Source of the DNA: Pandoraea pneumonica
GTDB lineage: Bacteria; Pseudomonadota; Gammaproteobacteria; Burkholderiales; Burkholderiaceae
Direction: 5' to 3'
Length of the DNA: 64,000 nucleotides
Assembly: GCF_902459645.1 (NCBI RefSeq)
Contig: NZ_CABPSK010000006.1
Location: 124,001 to 188,000, forward strand
Positions 6,750 to 52,665 of the stretch are shown here, piece by piece. A model generated the notes under the pieces. That model did no database searches. It saw only the letters and a program-made list of their open reading frames with translations, and had not been told where the DNA came from. Each line of letters opens with the position of its first letter. The first letter of the stretch is position 1. The position numbers and the translations under genes were made by a program.

Positions 6750-6905
6750 GCCCTTGTCTCCTTGACGGGGTCTTCCGTTGGGTGACAACCAAGAGTGGTC
6801 ATCATCGGAAAAATGTTGTCTTTTCGTGTGCATCTTAGCGGATTAGTCTTGCTCGGAGCGTCCGTAGAACTCAATCGAAAACAAGACACAGCAGGAGACA
6901 AATCC

Positions 6906-8327
6906 ATGAGCAATGAACTGTGGCGTTGGAGTGCCGTTGAAACCGTCAACCAGATCGCAAAGCGGGAGGTGTCGTCGACGGAGGTCGTAGCCAGTTGCCT
7001 GGCTCGGCTCGATGCGGTCAACCCGAAGGTCAACGCGGTCGTCGACGTTCTGGCGGATGAGGCGATGCAAGCGGCGGCTGATGCCGACGCGGCACTGGCT
7101 CGCGGTGAGTCCCTCGGGCCGCTGCACGGCGTGCCCGTGACGGTGAAAGTGAACGTTGATATGGCAGGCCGTGCCACCACCAATGGCGTCGTCTCGTATC
7201 AAGACGTGGTGGCCCGCGAGGACAGCCCTGTCGTGGCAAACCTGCGCCGGGCCGGGGCAGTGATCATCGGCCGTACCAACACCCCGGCCTTTTCATTGCG
7301 CTGGTTCACCGACAACGATCTGCATGGCCGCACGCTGAACCCATGGAACGCCAGCTACACCCCGGGCGGCTCCAGCGGCGGGGCGGCGGCGGCCGTCGCC
7401 GCAGGCATCGGTGCCATCGCCCATGGCAACGATCAGGGCGGATCGATTCGCTATCCCGCCTATGCCTGCGGTGTCGCGGGCTTGCGTCCCACACAGGGCA
7501 GGGTCCCGGCGTTCAACCCGTCGCAATTGCGCGATCGCACGATGGGCGCACAACTCTCGTCGGTGCAAGGGCCGTTGGCGCGCACCGTGGGTGACCTGCG
7601 GGTGGCGTTGCAAGCGATGGCAGGGCCGGACAAGCGAGATCCGTGGCAAGCATCGCTCCCACAGGGCGCCACGCCCGATGCATTTCCAACCCGTGTTGCC
7701 ATGTGTACAAAAGTGCCGGGCATCGCGGCAGGCGCAGAAGTCGTCGCTGCCGTGGAGCAGGCCGCGCGCTATCTCGAGGATGCCGGCTGCGTGGTCGAGG
7801 AAGTCGCGCCGCCCAGTTTCCACGCGGCAACCGACCTCTGGCTGGCGCTGACGATGAACGAACTCGCCGCAGGCGTGGGAGACGCCATCGAACATTTCGG
7901 CGACGCCGCCGTGCGCGCCGCTATCGGCACGCAGCGTAGCCACACGAATGCGCTCGATCTCGTCGGCTACATGAACGCGCTTTCGATGCGAACCACCTTG
8001 CTGCGCGAATGGCAGCAATTCTTCGCGCGTTACCCGCTCTTGCTGATGCCGGTGTCTTGGCAGCGTCCGTTCCTGATCGATGCCGACCAGCAAGGGGTCG
8101 ATGCTGCTCGCGGCCTTCTGGATGCGCAAAGTCCGCTGCTGGCGACGGCGATTCTCGGTTTGCCGGGGTTGTCCGTGCCGACGGGGGTGGCTGGCGGTGT
8201 GCCGATGGGCGTTCAACTCGTGAGCGGGCGGTTCCAAGAGGCGCTCTGTCTCACAGCAGGCGAAGCCATCGAAGCGCGATGCGGTGTGCTGACACCGATC
8301 GATCCGTCCAACGCAGCCACTCGCTGA
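6906..8327 (+). CDS. Amidase signature family hydrolase
   Basis: A 473-residue amidase that hydrolyses a carboxamide. The Ser-cisSer-Lys triad is complete: Lys81 (VTVKVN), Ser156 in GGSSGG and nucleophile Ser180 in DQGGSIRYP. The spacings of 75 and 24 residues match the family. The ATG at 6906 has AGGAG 11 bp upstream and begins the family domain; the longer frame from 6795 reaches into the regulator promoter. No signal peptide is seen, so it is probably cytoplasmic. It is followed by a DUF3311 peptide and a sodium-solute symporter, so the unit likely imports an amide or a related acid and hydrolyses it. Confidence 0.92.
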   Translation: MSNELWRWSAVETVNQIAKREVSSTEVVASCLARLDAVNPKVNAVVDVLADEAMQAAADADAALARGESLGPLHGVPVTVKVNVDMAGRATTNGVVSYQDVVAREDSPVVANLRRAGAVIIGRTNTPAFSLRWFTDNDLHGRTLNPWNASYTPGGSSGGAAAAVAAGIGAIAHGNDQGGSIRYPAYACGVAGLRPTQGRVPAFNPSQLRDRTMGAQLSSVQGPLARTVGDLRVALQAMAGPDKRDPWQASLPQGATPDAFPTRVAMCTKVPGIAAGAEVVAAVEQAARYLEDAGCVVEEVAPPSFHAATDLWLALTMNELAAGVGDAIEHFGDAAVRAAIGTQRSHTNALDLVGYMNALSMRTTLLREWQQFFARYPLLLMPVSWQRPFLIDADQQGVDAARGLLDAQSPLLATAILGLPGLSVPTGVAGGVPMGVQLVSGRFQEALCLTAGEAIEARCGVLTPIDPSNAATR

Positions 8328-48054: not shown

Positions 48055-48085
48055 AAAGGAAAAAGGACCGCGGGAAGTGGTCCTT
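48055..48085 (-). terminator. Rho-independent terminator for minus-strand transcription
   Basis: Read on the minus strand: AAGGACC (48085-48079), a 9-nt loop, GGTCCTT (48069-48063), then a T-rich tail. There is no T-run in the + direction. It overlaps the stop of the minus-strand frame at 48084-48272 and lies upstream of the response regulator. Confidence 0.7.
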
Positions 48086-48272
48086 AGGTGGCGATTGTGG
48101 TCCAGTTCGCGAGTTCCGCCTGCTCGTCCAAGTTCGCTTCAGCAAGTAACTCTCCCTTGAGCGCCGTTTGTATTACGTCAAAATTGCCGGAATTTCTCGG
48201 CCAATTCCCAATGGCGAAGCGAGAGAAATTGTGACGTTTTCTGATTAAATACGTCCCCAAGCCCCCCAACAC
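48084..48272 (-). CDS. Possible small protein or gene remnant, 62 codons
   Basis: A minus-strand frame starting at GTG 48272 encodes 62 residues with no Met inside. A weak GAG lies 6 bp before the GTG, and the frame stays open back to a TAG near 48323 without an ATG. Composition is protein-like (mixed hydrophobic, basic then acidic), and the frame ends exactly at a minus-strand terminator, which supports past or present transcription. It may be the C-terminal remnant of a gene cut by the arrival of the neighbouring operon, or a peptide gene. No family is recognised. Confidence 0.3.
   Translation of the reverse strand: MLGGLGTYLIRKRHNFSRFAIGNWPRNSGNFDVIQTALKGELLAEANLDEQAELANWTTIAT
48191..48230. 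repeat. Inverted repeat upstream of the ATP-grasp operon
   Basis: AATTTCTC (48191-48198) and GAGAAATT (48223-48230) form a perfect 8-bp inverted repeat with a 24-bp spacer, 83 bp before the ATP-grasp start. It may be an operator for the operon; it also lies within the minus-strand small frame. The rest of 47976-48312 has no other recognisable element. Confidence 0.4.
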
Positions 48273-48312
48273 CAGATGCTCAAAAACTCGTTCAAAGTCG
48301 AGGGGGACAGCT

Positions 48313-49293
48313 ATGCAAGATAACTACCAAACCGGCCAGACCGGCCCGAACAATGCTAAGGGACGCTTGGCGATCGTTACCGGGGGTGTCGGCCCGGAAC
48401 GTAGTGGCGCCTTGCTGTCGGGCCGCCATGTGGCCGAAGCGTGCAATTCACTTGGGATTGCAACTTCGGTCTACGACTCAGCTGAGCTCGATTTCAGTAA
48501 GCTTGTCAACTGCCGCGGTGCGTTTCTGACAACCCACGGATGGTACGGCGAAGACGGTAAGTTGCAGGGGGTGCTCGACTTACTTCGGGTTCCATATTCC
48601 GGATCCGGTGTTGCAGCCAGTGCCGCGGCTTACTTCAAGCCATTCGCAAACGCGATCGCAGTAACAGCGGGATTGCGGGTGCCGAAATCACATCTAGTCG
48701 ACATGAGATTCGGCGAATCTTTCGATGCCTCTTATCTGTACGCAAACCTCGGGCCACAGATATTTGTCAAACCCGCTTCCAACGGTTGCAGCCTAGGCGC
48801 CCAGATACTCGATAGTTCTGCCGCTACACGAGACTGGCTGAGCGAGGCGGCCACGACGGAATGCCCGATTTACGTTGCGGCGAAATACATCAACGGCCGG
48901 GACGTTAGCGCGGGCGTCATCGAAATTGACGGCGTTCCGACCATTCTGCCGCTTCTAGAGACTCGACACCTTCACCAGTTCTACAGTCACCAAGTCAAGC
49001 GCGACTCATCTTTACGTGAACACATTTGCCCTGCCAACATTAGTCCACGGGCCGAGCAGCAACTGAGGACAGATGCACTTCTCATATACAAGGCCCTCGG
49101 GTGTAGGGGCTTTGCTCGTATTGATTTCATCGTATCCGGCGACATCGTTTGGTTTCTCGAGGTGAATTCCCTTCCCGGATTTTCACGGAATGGCAATTTA
49201 GCGCAGATGGGCTACGCACATGGGTGGACGTATTCGGAAATGATTGCTCGGCTCATTTCCACGATGGACCCGTCTTCTTGCTATCGACCATAA
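48313..49293 (+). CDS. ATP-grasp ligase, D-alanine-D-alanine ligase-like
   Basis: A 326-residue enzyme with the Ddl architecture. The N-terminal GGVGPERSGALLSGRHV corresponds to the Ddl GGxSxEREVSLxSG motif, and HGWYGEDGKLQGVLDLLRVPYSGSG is the substrate-binding region. The adenine-side MDKxxxK reads YFKPFAN, keeping only the first Lys. VKPASNGCSLG is the phosphate loop and FLEVNSLPGFS binds Mg. It should join two amino-acid-like substrates by an acyl-phosphate. GAGGGGGACAG precedes the ATG at 48313. It is first in an AT-richer operon with an exporter, a C39-like protein and a PLP enzyme, so it is more likely biosynthetic than a cell-wall housekeeping ligase. Confidence 0.85.
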   Translation: MQDNYQTGQTGPNNAKGRLAIVTGGVGPERSGALLSGRHVAEACNSLGIATSVYDSAELDFSKLVNCRGAFLTTHGWYGEDGKLQGVLDLLRVPYSGSGVAASAAAYFKPFANAIAVTAGLRVPKSHLVDMRFGESFDASYLYANLGPQIFVKPASNGCSLGAQILDSSAATRDWLSEAATTECPIYVAAKYINGRDVSAGVIEIDGVPTILPLLETRHLHQFYSHQVKRDSSLREHICPANISPRAEQQLRTDALLIYKALGCRGFARIDFIVSGDIVWFLEVNSLPGFSRNGNLAQMGYAHGWTYSEMIARLISTMDPSSCYRP

Positions 49294-50502
49294 ATGGGAA
49301 AGCTTCAGCGAATCATTTCTACCGCGGCGATCTGTCAGTTGGGAGAGGGTATTCATCGAACCAGCGTCCCGATCATCGCCGCCACAATCGAGGTGGAAAG
49401 TTCGGGGGTGGGACTTGCCGTAGCTGCGTCCCGACTTCCTTGGCTGCTCGTGTCTCTGATGGCGGGTGTTGCAATCGACCGACTGACGGCAATTACCGTT
49501 CTCAGGGCAGGCGTAACCATACGCCTGATAGGCCTAACGATGCTTCTGTGGGTTCTAACGTACGGAGCAATTGATCTTCCTCTTTTCACGTGCGTTTGCT
49601 TTCTGATCGCATCCGGTGAAGTCGTAACGGAGATATCCATTCAAGCATCCATACCGCTGGCATCACACGCAAAATATCTCCCGAATGCCAATGCTCGAAT
49701 GTATGGGATACAAATTGTTTTTTCTCAACTTCTCGGGCCAATTGCTGCCGGATTGTTGCTGGCAACGGGTATGAGCACGATGGTTCGCAGCACCGTGTCG
49801 CTTCAGTTGTTAGCAATCTTCGGAGCATTTGTTCTTTGCAACTTACTTGTCCGTCACACACCACGGGCTAGGAAGATTAATTTTCACTCTGAGGAAGGGG
49901 TAAGACTGCAGGATGTGATTAGGTTCCTATGCAAAACACGGAGCATCCTGGGAATTCAGATACTTGCTTCGTTGATGATGCTGATATACGGGATTTGGAG
50001 TGCGGTTTTTGTGTTGTATGCGACAGATGCAAATCATGGGCTTGGGCTGACAACGTTCCAGTACGGATTATTAATGTCGGCGATCGCAGTTGGAGGCTTG
50101 GCGGGAAGCATCACGGCATCACGGATCACCAAAGTCGTGAGTGAGTTCTCGCTCGTGTGCTTTGCTTGCATCGCCTTGGTGTGTCTCACAGCAGTGTGTG
50201 TGCTATCGAGGTCAACGACATTGGTATGTATTTCGCTGGTCGCCTACGGATCGTCGCTGGCTACGTGGAACGTTGCCGTGGTAACTCACAGACAAAGAAT
50301 GTCGCCAGCGTTCATGCTTGGTCGAATGACCGGGATTTACCGGACCTGCTCGTGGGGAATGATGCCCTTGGGTGCATTGATTGGAGCCTGGGTCACCTCG
50401 GTGCAAGGAACTATCGCGGCCTTTGTGCTCGCGTCGATTCTCGGACTCATGCAGCTTCCCGTCATTCCACTCTTGTCCGATATGCGTCGGCGCCGTGAAT
50501 GA
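49294..50502 (+). CDS. MFS transporter, MFS_3 (EntS-like) exporter
   Basis: A 402-residue 12-span carrier. The segment MLGRMTGIYRTCSWGMMPLGALIGAW near the end is the MFS_3 hallmark shared with enterobactin, bacilysin-type and drug exporters. Its ATG directly abuts the ligase stop (TAAATG) with no ribosome site of its own, so it is translated by coupling. Codon use is relaxed like its neighbours. The likely role is export of, and self-protection from, the product made by the ligase operon. Confidence 0.87.
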   Translation: MGKLQRIISTAAICQLGEGIHRTSVPIIAATIEVESSGVGLAVAASRLPWLLVSLMAGVAIDRLTAITVLRAGVTIRLIGLTMLLWVLTYGAIDLPLFTCVCFLIASGEVVTEISIQASIPLASHAKYLPNANARMYGIQIVFSQLLGPIAAGLLLATGMSTMVRSTVSLQLLAIFGAFVLCNLLVRHTPRARKINFHSEEGVRLQDVIRFLCKTRSILGIQILASLMMLIYGIWSAVFVLYATDANHGLGLTTFQYGLLMSAIAVGGLAGSITASRITKVVSEFSLVCFACIALVCLTAVCVLSRSTTLVCISLVAYGSSLATWNVAVVTHRQRMSPAFMLGRMTGIYRTCSWGMMPLGALIGAWVTSVQGTIAAFVLASILGLMQLPVIPLLSDMRRRRE

Positions 50503-51131
50503 ACAATACGTATCGTCACGCCAACGTTCCCTATCGATCTCAATGGGCATCGCCCGAGCTAAACGAGCGCATCGTGAATGGCTCGATAGATCCTTGCGAT
50601 GATCCCATGTGGACCCTCTCCGGATTCTCCTCAGCTACCGAATACCGTTTTTGGGCTAGACGAATCTGTGGCATTGCATGCCTCGAATCGATTCTCGATT
50701 TTCTGTCAATTCCTCACGGGACACGCTATGAAATGGTGCGTGAAGCGCTTTCGTTCGGCGCATATATCAGGCATGACGACAACTCGGTAACCGGTCTCAT
50801 CTACAGACCGTTTTGCGACTGGGTTCGCGCGCGCTATCAACTTGATGTCGACGTATATGAACACACGCCGCTCTCCAACGTTGCGAAGGCCATTTCACCA
50901 TCGTGTATGGCATTTGCATCGGTGAGTTCGGAGATCAGAAATCCAACGACACCGAACGCTCGTAAGGGGGGGCATCTCATTCTCATACACGGGACGGACC
51001 CAGAGAACATTCTGTTTCATAACCCATCTGGCGTGCCTCCTTATCAGGCAAACGTCAGTCTGCGTATCAAGGAAGCCGAGCGATTTTTCGCACGGCGGGG
51101 AATGTTCGTATCGATCCCCTCAGGAAGTTGA
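50499..51131 (+). CDS. C39-like papain-fold protein
   Basis: A 210-residue soluble protein. ARRICGIACLESIL matches the C39/C39_2 active-site motif with Cys57 as nucleophile. GGHLILIHGTDPENILFHNPSG supplies His159 and, in the usual Asp position, Asn175. The papain-type Cys-His-Asn triad is therefore complete. No signal peptide or ABC/GG-leader architecture is present, so it is not a bacteriocin exporter domain; it may hydrolyse, transfer or condense a peptide bond. The start overlaps the MFS stop by 4 bp (ATGA), and the PLP gene follows after 50 bp. Confidence 0.75.
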   Translation: MNNTYRHANVPYRSQWASPELNERIVNGSIDPCDDPMWTLSGFSSATEYRFWARRICGIACLESILDFLSIPHGTRYEMVREALSFGAYIRHDDNSVTGLIYRPFCDWVRARYQLDVDVYEHTPLSNVAKAISPSCMAFASVSSEIRNPTTPNARKGGHLILIHGTDPENILFHNPSGVPPYQANVSLRIKEAERFFARRGMFVSIPSGS

Positions 51132-51181
51132 ACCGAGTTGCGAAGCGCCCCCCGAACTACCAAAAATTGTGAGGTGGAAAA

Positions 51182-52240
51182 ATGAAGGACAACGCAAGTC
51201 GCACATGCGGTCTGCAAACTAGTTTGGAATCTCCAAGCGTTGTCGAGCATACGAGATATCGCATCAATTCTGCATACGAGACGATACAACCGTATATCGT
51301 GAGGACGCCATTGCTCTCGTCGCGGCGGCTAAACGATCAATTGCGATGTAGTCTTTTTGTCAAGGCGGAGTGTTTGCAGCACACCGGATCTTTCAAATTT
51401 CGAGGCGCGTTGAACAAGATTCTTTCAGTCACGAGGCGTGCGTTCTCACCGCACCTACTCACCTGGTCGTCTGGAAATCACGGAGCAGCGGTGGCTGAAG
51501 TCGCAAGGCTATTGGGAATTCCGGCAACCATTGTCGCGCCGCCGTGGATCCCGGAAGCCAAGAAAAATAACATTCGTTGTAGGGGGGCCAAACTTCACGT
51601 AGCAGGTTCGGTCATCGACATTGCAAGCTTTGGTACCGAAATGGCCGCCGATTTAGGGGCCACCGTAATTCCAGCGTATGACGATCCGTTTGTGATCGAA
51701 GGTCAGGCAAGCGTAACGTTGGAGGTTTTGAAGCAGTTCGAGGCCCAGTGCGGCCGTGCCGTTCCAGACGTCATCGTTCTTCCCTGTGGGGGCGGAAGCT
51801 TAGCGGCGGGGGCCGCTTTGGCTGTGGAAGACGAGCCGAATATTCGGCTGATTGCCGCTGAGCCCTCTAGCGCAGCTGACACGAAAATATCACTCGCCGC
51901 GGGTAGGCCATGTAAAGATCCCAATGCGGGGCCAACGATATGCGACGCGTTGAGAAATCCTCTCCCGGGGGCAGAAACGTTCGAAATCATGAAACGCTCG
52001 GTTCGCGATGTTCACGTGTTGGACGACAAGGCCGTTCTAGATTCAATGCGGGTGTTGTTTGAGCATTTCAGACTCGTGTCTGAGCCTGCCGGCGCGATAG
52101 CACTGGCCGCAGTGCTATCAAATTTTGAATCACTTGAGGGGCAGAACGTAGTCGTTGTGGTATCTGGCGGGAACGTATCGCGCACGACATTTTACGACGC
52201 CATTAGGGGGTGTCCGTTTGACGCCGCGCTTATGATTTAG
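51182..52240 (+). CDS. PLP-dependent serine/threonine dehydratase or racemase family protein (fold type II)
   Basis: A 352-residue enzyme of the threonine dehydratase/serine racemase family. The PLP Lys is Lys72 in GSFKFRGA, SSGNHGAAVAEVA holds the substrate carboxylate, the phosphate loop is LPCGGGSLAAG and VVSGGN lies near the pyridine nitrogen. There is no ACT regulatory domain, unlike biosynthetic IlvA. GAGGTGG precedes the ATG at 51182. In this operon it could supply a 2-oxo acid, a dehydroamino acid, a D-amino acid or a beta-substituted alanine for the ligase. Confidence 0.85.
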   Translation: MKDNASRTCGLQTSLESPSVVEHTRYRINSAYETIQPYIVRTPLLSSRRLNDQLRCSLFVKAECLQHTGSFKFRGALNKILSVTRRAFSPHLLTWSSGNHGAAVAEVARLLGIPATIVAPPWIPEAKKNNIRCRGAKLHVAGSVIDIASFGTEMAADLGATVIPAYDDPFVIEGQASVTLEVLKQFEAQCGRAVPDVIVLPCGGGSLAAGAALAVEDEPNIRLIAAEPSSAADTKISLAAGRPCKDPNAGPTICDALRNPLPGAETFEIMKRSVRDVHVLDDKAVLDSMRVLFEHFRLVSEPAGAIALAAVLSNFESLEGQNVVVVVSGGNVSRTTFYDAIRGCPFDAALMI

Positions 52241-52260
52241 GGCTCCCCAGAAGATCCAGA

Positions 52261-52297
52261 TGCCGCTTCGACGCAAATCGAAGCGGCATTTTTCTTT
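52261..52297 (+). terminator. Rho-independent terminator of the ATP-grasp/MFS/C39/PLP operon
   Basis: A perfect 11-bp stem TGCCGCTTCGA (52261-52271) / TCGAAGCGGCA (52278-52288) with loop CGCAAA, followed by TTTTTCTTT. It starts 21 bp after the PLP gene and marks the end of the operon and of the AT-richer segment. Confidence 0.92.
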
Positions 52298-52318
52298 AGG
52301 GAACGCGAGCAGAGCGAA

Positions 52319-52390
52319 TCAGTTAAAGATCGGCAGGCTGGCGATGAAGGGGACGACGTCGCGGCCGATGTAGTAAGCGATAGCTGCCAT
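52319..52390 (-). CDS. Micro-ORF, 23-residue hydrophobic peptide
   Basis: On the minus strand, ATG at 52390 to TGA at 52319-52321 encodes 23 residues beginning MAAIAYYIGRDVV and ending ASLPIFN, mostly hydrophobic with one Arg-Asp pair. AGGAG lies 7 bp upstream of the ATG. The 15-nt start region AGGAG-NN-ACACC-ATG is identical, apart from the NN, to that of the next micro-ORF. It lies within the 52241-52871 gap, convergent with the upstream operon. No family is recognised; it could be a membrane-active or regulatory small protein. Confidence 0.55.
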   Translation of the reverse strand: MAAIAYYIGRDVVPFIASLPIFN

Positions 52391-52455
52391 GGTGTTTCTC
52401 CTGAGTTAGTGGTGTGGCGATTTGAAGTTAATGCGTCTGTTTCAGCGGGTTCGGT

Positions 52456-52542
52456 TCAGTAGCCGAAGAAGTGGCCGACGGTCATCACATAGTTGGCGGC
52501 GGGTTCGGCGTAGGTGTCGAAGAGGTAGGCGAACGGGATCAT
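52456..52542 (-). CDS. Micro-ORF, 28-residue aromatic-rich peptide
   Basis: On the minus strand, ATG at 52542 to TGA at 52456-52458 encodes 28 residues starting MIPFAYLFDTYAEPAANY and ending TVGHFFGY, with four Tyr and four Phe. A strong ribosome site (AAAAAAGGAG, 7 bp spacing) precedes it. It is upstream of, and co-directional with, the 23-residue micro-ORF, 65 bp away, so both may share one transcript. The pairing of strong initiation signals argues against chance frames. The function is unknown. Confidence 0.58.
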   Translation of the reverse strand: MIPFAYLFDTYAEPAANYVMTVGHFFGY

Positions 52543-52665
52543 GGTGTGGCTCCTTTTTTCAGCGATTCAAGTTGCGGTTCAGGGTTCGATTCAGCTTCGG
52601 TGTTTCGCGGCTGGTGTGTTGCGTTGGCCGTTGAATGAAGTATCGTCATCGACCCGCTGCGCCGA

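Follow-up and report, generated by a model that had tools for sequence, protein, structure and literature searches.

Why should a Ddl-like ligase, an exporter, a papain-fold enzyme and a racemase-like enzyme share one operon? The question arises from a stretch of 64,000 nucleotides of Pandoraea pneumonica (here called the window; genome G000, 5.85 Mb), in which four genes follow each other on the plus strand. They encode a Ddl-like ATP-grasp ligase of 326 amino acids (aa) (48313..49293; PF07478, Dala_Dala_lig_C, 110 bits), an MFS_3 exporter of the major facilitator superfamily (MFS) of 402 aa (49294..50502; PF05977, 63.5 bits), a C39-like papain-fold cysteine enzyme of 210 aa (50499..51131; Peptidase_C39_2, PF13529, 32.2 bits against a cut-off of 24, with the catalytic Cys, His and Asn present) and a pyridoxal-phosphate (PLP) fold-II enzyme of the serine-racemase/dehydratase family of 352 aa (51182..52240; PF00291, PALP, 230 bits). 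The MFS start codon abuts the TAA of the ligase gene (TAAATG), the C39 gene overlaps the MFS gene by ATGA, and a 50-bp gap precedes the PLP gene. An original prediction, made from the letters of the window, had described the same open reading frames (ORFs) and junctions, which we confirmed; its functional interpretation was partly supported. We tentatively propose, as a possible reading, that the operon is a D-amino-acid dipeptide module, in which a racemase, an altered Ddl-like ligase, a C39 enzyme and an exporter would make, export and dispose of a dipeptide.

The Ddl-like ligase

The operon ligase is not the housekeeping Ddl. That enzyme (181.7 bits) is encoded within murC-ddl-ftsQ-ftsA on another contig (C3), so identity of the two was rejected, in line with the original prediction. 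Where Ddl has the P-loop Ser, the omega-loop Tyr and the acceptor Ser-Leu, whose roles we take to be those in E. coli DdlB, the window protein carries C159, R230 and G294-N295. The metal- and ATP-site residues are retained, and the residue pattern suggests an active enzyme that uses a different acceptor.

When 31 ligases were placed in a tree, the Pandoraea proteins grouped with those of locus L160, of the actinomycete trios described below and of L234 and L293. Support for this group of 19 rows was moderate (91/92) and not among that of the best-supported forks. Housekeeping Ddl, VanA-type and Agrobacterium/Rhizobium ligases fall outside the group; the ligase of L161 attaches to it through a long branch of uncertain position. 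In all 19 proteins the P-loop Ser is replaced by G or C, the omega-loop Lys is followed by a residue that is not Tyr, and the acceptor Ser-Leu is G-N. This G-N occurs in none of the 12 remaining rows (19 of 31 overall). Among the best 25 of 35 NCBIfam families listed for the window ligase, the van models gave 77–128 bits against cut-offs of at least 495, which speaks against a ligase of the VanA or VanC type. It also fell short of the general Ddl subfamily model (198.1 bits; cut-off 243).

Gene partners of the ligase and the C39 enzyme

The ligase was found at E≤1e−40 in four of 32 Pandoraea genomes searched, the window genome included. The three others (G140, G147 and G109) have the same ligase-MFS-C39-PLP order, with identities to the window of 61–62% (ligase), 36–45% (MFS), 55–57% (C39) and 56–60% (PLP) and an operon G+C content of 0.45–0.49. 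The sites differ: G140 and G109 share one neighbourhood, and G147 has a third. Ligases with at least 61% identity were confined to these four Pandoraea among 299 Burkholderiaceae genomes, the next best having 29–32%. The spread within Pandoraea looks like old or repeated acquisition, not like a single recent event.

Related gene sets occur in other proteobacteria. A proteobacterial metagenome-assembled genome (MAG; L160) encodes, in order, an Asp/Glu racemase, the ligase (46% identity), C39 (45%) and an MFS protein; a Herbaspirillum MAG (L161) encodes an Asp/Glu racemase, ligase, C39 and an EamA exporter. A Rhizobium rhizogenes plasmid (L175) has C39, a Ddl-type ligase and an annotated drug/metabolite transporter (DMT), and two Agrobacterium plasmids (L088 and L177) have C39 and a Ddl-type ligase with no neighbouring exporter. 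An exporter, of the MFS or the DMT/EamA superfamily, adjoins seven of the nine proteobacterial ligase-C39 loci examined. The combination of ligase, amino-acid enzyme, C39 and exporter, which had been singled out as one system, is therefore a recurring one.

Using a Streptomyces ligase as query (E≤1e−42), we found 20 ligase loci, spread over 19 of the 297 Streptomycetaceae genomes, and examined all 20. A C39 gene lies within ~1.1 kb on the same strand at 14 of these ligases (G330, G340, G451, G513, G422, G491, G503, G507, G344, G439, G545, G325, G334 and G587) and is missing at six (G438 twice, G305, G318, G341 and G335); the rows are related to each other, so that these counts do not amount to a significance test. 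A murF-like gene was near 12 of the 14 ligases with C39 (two of the 12 are pieces of 120–122 aa, and in L251 the contig stops before the gene could be seen) and near one of the six without. A PLP gene was near nine of the 20. Ligase, C39 and murF are consecutive in L340–L343, with C39 and murF overlapping in L340.

Plasmids of Streptomyces and Nonomuraea carry a ligase-PLP-C39 trio, in most of those examined together with a murF, a second Mur ligase or an M55 D-aminopeptidase gene. A copy of the trio on the plasmid of Streptomyces NBC_01527 (L170:10167-12537) has a broken ligase gene. The plasmid of Streptomyces NBC_01591 (L172) carries vanH, a vanO-type ligase gene and vanX, followed by C39; a VanRS-like pair and a murF-like gene lie close to them. 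With a van-type C39 query (E≤1e−10), 23 of 250 genomes of the Nonomuraea family matched at 25 places, and the four best (73–76% identity to the L172 C39) overlap the end of vanX. Such an overlap was seen in the vanHAX operons of L172, L278–L281 and L347. Besides the altered-pocket group, two other ligase types are separately tied to C39.

The PLP enzyme

The best solved relative of the PLP enzyme is a serine racemase (5cvc, 190.6 bits), followed by threonine deaminase (162.5 bits). Taking the residue roles to be those of PLP fold II serine racemase, we assigned K72 as the Schiff-base Lys, S97 as the Ser of SSGNH, E227, A231 and D233 as the metal site and S328 as the C-terminal Ser. These catalytic-type residues agree with the serine-racemase set and are kept in all four Pandoraea proteins. 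Given the serine racemase as closest solved structure and the Asp/Glu racemase genes that replace the PLP gene in two relatives, the enzyme would more likely supply a D-amino acid than one with an unusual side chain. Of the earlier proposal that it makes an unusual amino acid, we therefore keep the supply of an amino acid and set aside the unusual side chain.

The C39 enzyme

Q15, C57, H159 and N175 of the C39 enzyme are invariant, C57, H159 and N175 being so in alignments of 12, 27 and 10 rows. The relatives in L161, L083 and L089 score below 24 bits on PF13529, and those in L172 and L278 give no match. A PDB sequence search with a C39 profile gave no match at E≤1. When compared by Foldseek and VIA-align, the structural model (pLDDT 95.6) showed a similar likeness to double-glycine C39 domains, 3erv (a C39-like protein), pseudomurein endoisopeptidase, staphopains and the phytochelatin synthase Alr0975; the comparison named no substrate. 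Long branches meet in the C39 tree, and its deep forks were not used. A phage origin was rejected, as 50,697 phage records contained no C39 match at E≤1e−5.

At the site that the operon occupies in the window, two Pandoraea genomes (G216 and G168) have the same leader as far as the ligase ATG, followed by a C39 gene (76–77% identity) and the same terminator; no ligase, MFS or PLP match was found at this C39-only site. The two C39 alleles differ by 0.136 synonymous (dS) and 0.017 non-synonymous (dN) substitutions per site (dN/dS ~0.12), and from the window allele by a dS of ~0.7 and a dN of 0.13. The C39-only alleles are under purifying selection. The simplest reading is that the three other genes were lost and C39 was kept by selection; insertion of the genes around an older C39 is less simple. 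Since C39 is kept alone under purifying selection in two genomes, a role in immunity or turnover is indicated.

The C39 family also occurs outside the operon. A match was present in 52 of 299 Burkholderiaceae genomes (E≤0.001); 37 of the 40 loci fetched had a match above 100 bits, and three of the 37 had ligase, MFS and PLP genes. Solo C39 genes, mostly of Paraburkholderia (L044–L069; names from the best 80 of 249 matches), often adjoin genes for a DAO-type oxidoreductase and OCD/mu-crystallin; a proline-racemase-like gene is present in L049, whose gene cluster recurs in L054 and L055. Among Streptomycetaceae, 102 of 297 genomes matched (E≤1e−10). In 40 loci chosen mainly from the top of the match list, ligase and PLP genes accompanied C39 in five and a ligase gene alone in one. 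C39 lies directly 3' of a class I/II aminotransferase gene in eight of the 40 (L222–L227, L252 and L253).

Relation to known systems

The original prediction had pointed to a bacilysin-like logic. Bacilysin pairs an ATP-grasp ligase with an MFS exporter, as does the window operon; unlike the bacilysin ligase, the window ligase is Ddl-type (PF07478), and no other bacilysin-type gene was recognised among the neighbours examined, no search having been aimed at them. Because relatives of the operon genes adjoin murF and vanX, the closest logic is instead the D-Ala-D-X chemistry of vanHAX, vanC and pdx operons. The vanC-type operon (vanC, vanXY, vanT) shares the logic of ligase, peptidase and racemase, but the window ligase is far below the VanC model cut-offs, and the vanC-type peptidase and racemase belong to other protein families. 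The likeness to vanHAX and vanO operons lies in the C39 relative that overlaps the vanX end in L172 and L278–L281; unlike these operons, the window operon has no vanH or vanX. C39 double-glycine peptidases of ABC exporters also differ, being fused or adjacent to an ABC exporter, whereas the window C39 is a stand-alone protein beside an MFS gene; no precursor peptide was recognised in the window operon.

A published survey of van genes describes a pdx operon of Micromonosporales with PALP dehydratase, Ddl-like and VanX-like genes and VanRS, likened to D-Ala-D-Ser remodelling in a role that its authors call untested (PMC8698665). The earlier statement that the gene set matches no known system was thus too strong. 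PALP Ser/Thr-dehydratase-like and Ddl-like genes with a peptidase are likewise found in the window and in the actinomycete trios. Where pdx has VanX (M15) and VanRS, the window operon has C39 and an MFS exporter and no VanRS; the likeness to the pdx operon is one of gene content. No vanX or VanY relative was found in the window at E≤1e−4, and 30 PLP loci of the class sampled for pdx had no ligase, vanX or C39 match within 1.5 kb.

The same survey reports orf2 of the vanO operon, of unknown function, after vanX in all Actinomadura vanHAX operons (PMC8698665). Because our vanX-C39 loci have this reported position, orf2 is probably, by position only, a member of the C39 family. Ktedonobacteria that lost vanX are reported in a second survey to have gained M15B and C39 peptidase genes, the latter possibly of the window C39 family (PMC9689679). 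Wall remodelling by the related pdx operon is thus already in print as a proposal, and C39 in van loci partly so. In the literature searched, with preprints and most subscription journals outside the search, these two surveys alone were relevant; we found no paper on the ligase-PLP-C39-exporter set and none on its Gram-negative exporter version.

Proposed function and alternatives

From the observed gene order, families, linkage, loss pattern, predicted fold and conserved catalytic residues, we infer what the enzymes act on, which way the transporter works and what C39 does, as follows. The PLP enzyme would racemise its substrate to a D-amino acid, most likely D-Ser or a D-Ser-like compound. 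The ligase, with an acceptor pocket unlike that of Ddl or VanA, would couple this product to D-Ala or another D-amino acid, and the MFS protein would carry the dipeptide out of the Gram-negative cell. The cytosolic C39 enzyme, in the slot that VanX occupies in pdx and vanHAX operons, would cleave the same kind of peptide for immunity or turnover. The cell's own D-Ala-D-Ala is probably not among its substrates, because the C39 gene is kept alone in many genomes.

Two kinds of candidate racemase, a ligase group with an altered pocket, and murF, vanX and exporter partners make D-amino-acid dipeptide chemistry the best common denominator of these loci. Exporters of two superfamilies in the proteobacterial loci favour an exported product for Pandoraea, murF beside ligase and C39 favours a wall role in actinomycetes, and the retention of C39 alone speaks for immunity or turnover rather than for a D-Ala-D-Ala dipeptidase.

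Several observations weigh against such a dipeptide module. Most C39 loci examined are solo, in neighbourhoods with no evident D-amino-acid link: 34 of the 37 Burkholderiaceae loci have no ligase, MFS or PLP gene, 10 of the 40 Streptomycetaceae loci share a conserved chromosomal neighbourhood without such a link, and no vanX lies within range at 21 of the 25 Nonomuraea-family places (a trio-type ligase gene is present at five of the 21). The occurrence of C39 outside the operon therefore speaks against an enzyme of the operon only. The original prediction had named scattered, unlinked homologues as evidence against itself, and here the outcome was divided: C39 is scattered, and in Streptomycetaceae the ligase shows strong linkage to C39. 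The Asp/Glu racemase gene of L160 is only a second half at a contig edge, and that of L161 is frameshifted (two frames, 6867–7690; 30.3 bits against a cut-off of 31), through either real decay or an assembly error. The serine-racemase residue set also occurs in some dehydratases, the best NCBIfam model of the PLP enzyme is a threo-3-hydroxyaspartate ammonia-lyase (PRK07048, 222.6 bits, below the cut-off of 452), and the enzyme also fits a plain dehydratase. One Streptomyces ligase (L083) passes the general Ddl subfamily model with 246.3 bits. Finally, no relatives of the murF, Mur-ligase, vanX, VanY or M55 queries were found either in the window or in the surroundings of the three other Pandoraea operons (E≤1e−4), so that the cell-wall link in Pandoraea is drawn by analogy.

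The same genes could instead remodel the wall in the manner of vanC or pdx: the PLP enzyme would provide D-Ser and the ligase D-Ala-D-Ser or a similar dipeptide for incorporation into peptidoglycan precursors by the housekeeping MurF, C39 would, like VanX, clear the normal D-Ala-D-Ala, and the MFS protein would export an antibiotic or by-product. Such a role has been proposed for the PALP-Ddl-VanX pdx operon (PMC8698665), and a gain of C39, possibly of the same family, on vanX loss is on record for Ktedonobacteria (PMC9689679). The ligase-C39-murF runs, the frequency of murF near C39-linked ligases and the C39 genes adjoining vanX point the same way. We nevertheless consider it doubtful: no murF relative is near the Pandoraea operons, and C39 stands without a partner ligase in G216, G168 and most loci, where a lone D-Ala-D-Ala dipeptidase should harm its host. 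Glycopeptides, moreover, hardly enter Gram-negative cells.

The retention of C39 alone would also suit self-protection without biosynthesis, in which a spare Ddl-like enzyme, a pump, a hydrolase and a PLP enzyme confer tolerance to a D-amino-acid antimetabolite such as D-cycloserine; a spare Ddl and an MFS pump form the resistance pair of the D-cycloserine cluster. This is improbable, as the changed acceptor pocket and the repeated pairing with racemase-type genes suggest a new product and not a spare copy. That an ordinary dehydratase, a general peptidase and a Ddl paralogue merely travel together on mobile DNA with no shared pathway would agree with the many solo C39 loci and with PLP family names that fit degradation. 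This too is improbable, given the overlapping genes, the shared gene order of the four Pandoraea operons, which have diverged and occupy three chromosomal places, and the 14 of 20 ligase-C39 adjacencies in another phylum.

The dipeptide module can be extended to a further, in our view unlikely, reading. A widespread and so far unrecognised family of cytosolic C39 enzymes would act specifically on D-amino-acid di- or depsipeptides, as a VanX substitute or companion in actinomycetes and, in Gram-negative bacteria, as the immunity enzyme for an exported D-dipeptide antimetabolite directed against the Ddl/MurF step of competitors; orphan C39 genes would be acquired or leftover immunity genes.

The C39-like protein, and probably vanO orf2, is linked to D-Ala-D-X chemistry by partnerships that recur and that in some cases involve non-homologous genes, and the operon offers three soluble enzymes and one transporter with directly testable substrates. 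An exported product would represent a new small-molecule route against cell-wall synthesis; one retained in the cell would add to the ways in which bacteria alter peptidoglycan peptide ends.

Acquisition and neighbourhood of the operon

The four genes are one acquired unit of ~4.2 kb (48084..52318, plus strand; blastn against L256 and alignment). In the empty site of a close relative, Pandoraea G204, ~160 bp replaces this segment, leaving only a short spacer between the response regulator gene and the downstream gene of 233 aa. The G+C content of the unit is 0.532, compared with 0.623 for the window. The four genes have a G+C content of 0.52–0.55 (0.55–0.59 at third codon positions, GC3), and the seven surrounding genes 0.58–0.67 (GC3 0.73–0.87). 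Transfer, which the AT-rich composition had suggested at the outset, is borne out by these values and by the empty site.

The leader (48084..48312, plus strand) and an intrinsic terminator (52258..52291, plus strand) are conserved in both C39-only relatives (L039 and L040). The terminator, previously described as a perfect 11-bp one, is real; its stem is longer, with 12 perfect pairs (14 in the scan), and is followed by a T-rich tail. The simple scan gave four terminator-like sites against a shuffle mean of 5.2, that is, no excess; the stem of the operon terminator is the longest among them. Upstream of the operon, no sigma-70-like promoter was found.

The adjoining histidine kinase and response regulator genes (weak vanS match, 1.7e−6; LuxR-type regulator) are present in 24 of 32 Pandoraea genomes, most of which lack the operon. 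Between this pair and the cyo genes lie two very short ORFs with good Shine-Dalgarno sequences (52320–52545, minus strand), MAAIAYYIGRDVVPFIASLPIFN and MIPFAYLFDTYAEPAANYVMTVGHFFGY, which may be small membrane or signal peptides. Because they persist in the operon-free G204, processing of these peptides by C39 was rejected as the purpose of the operon. Near-identical copies occur in L039 and L256, and diverged ones in L258 and L266 share a VGHxFGY/F tail.

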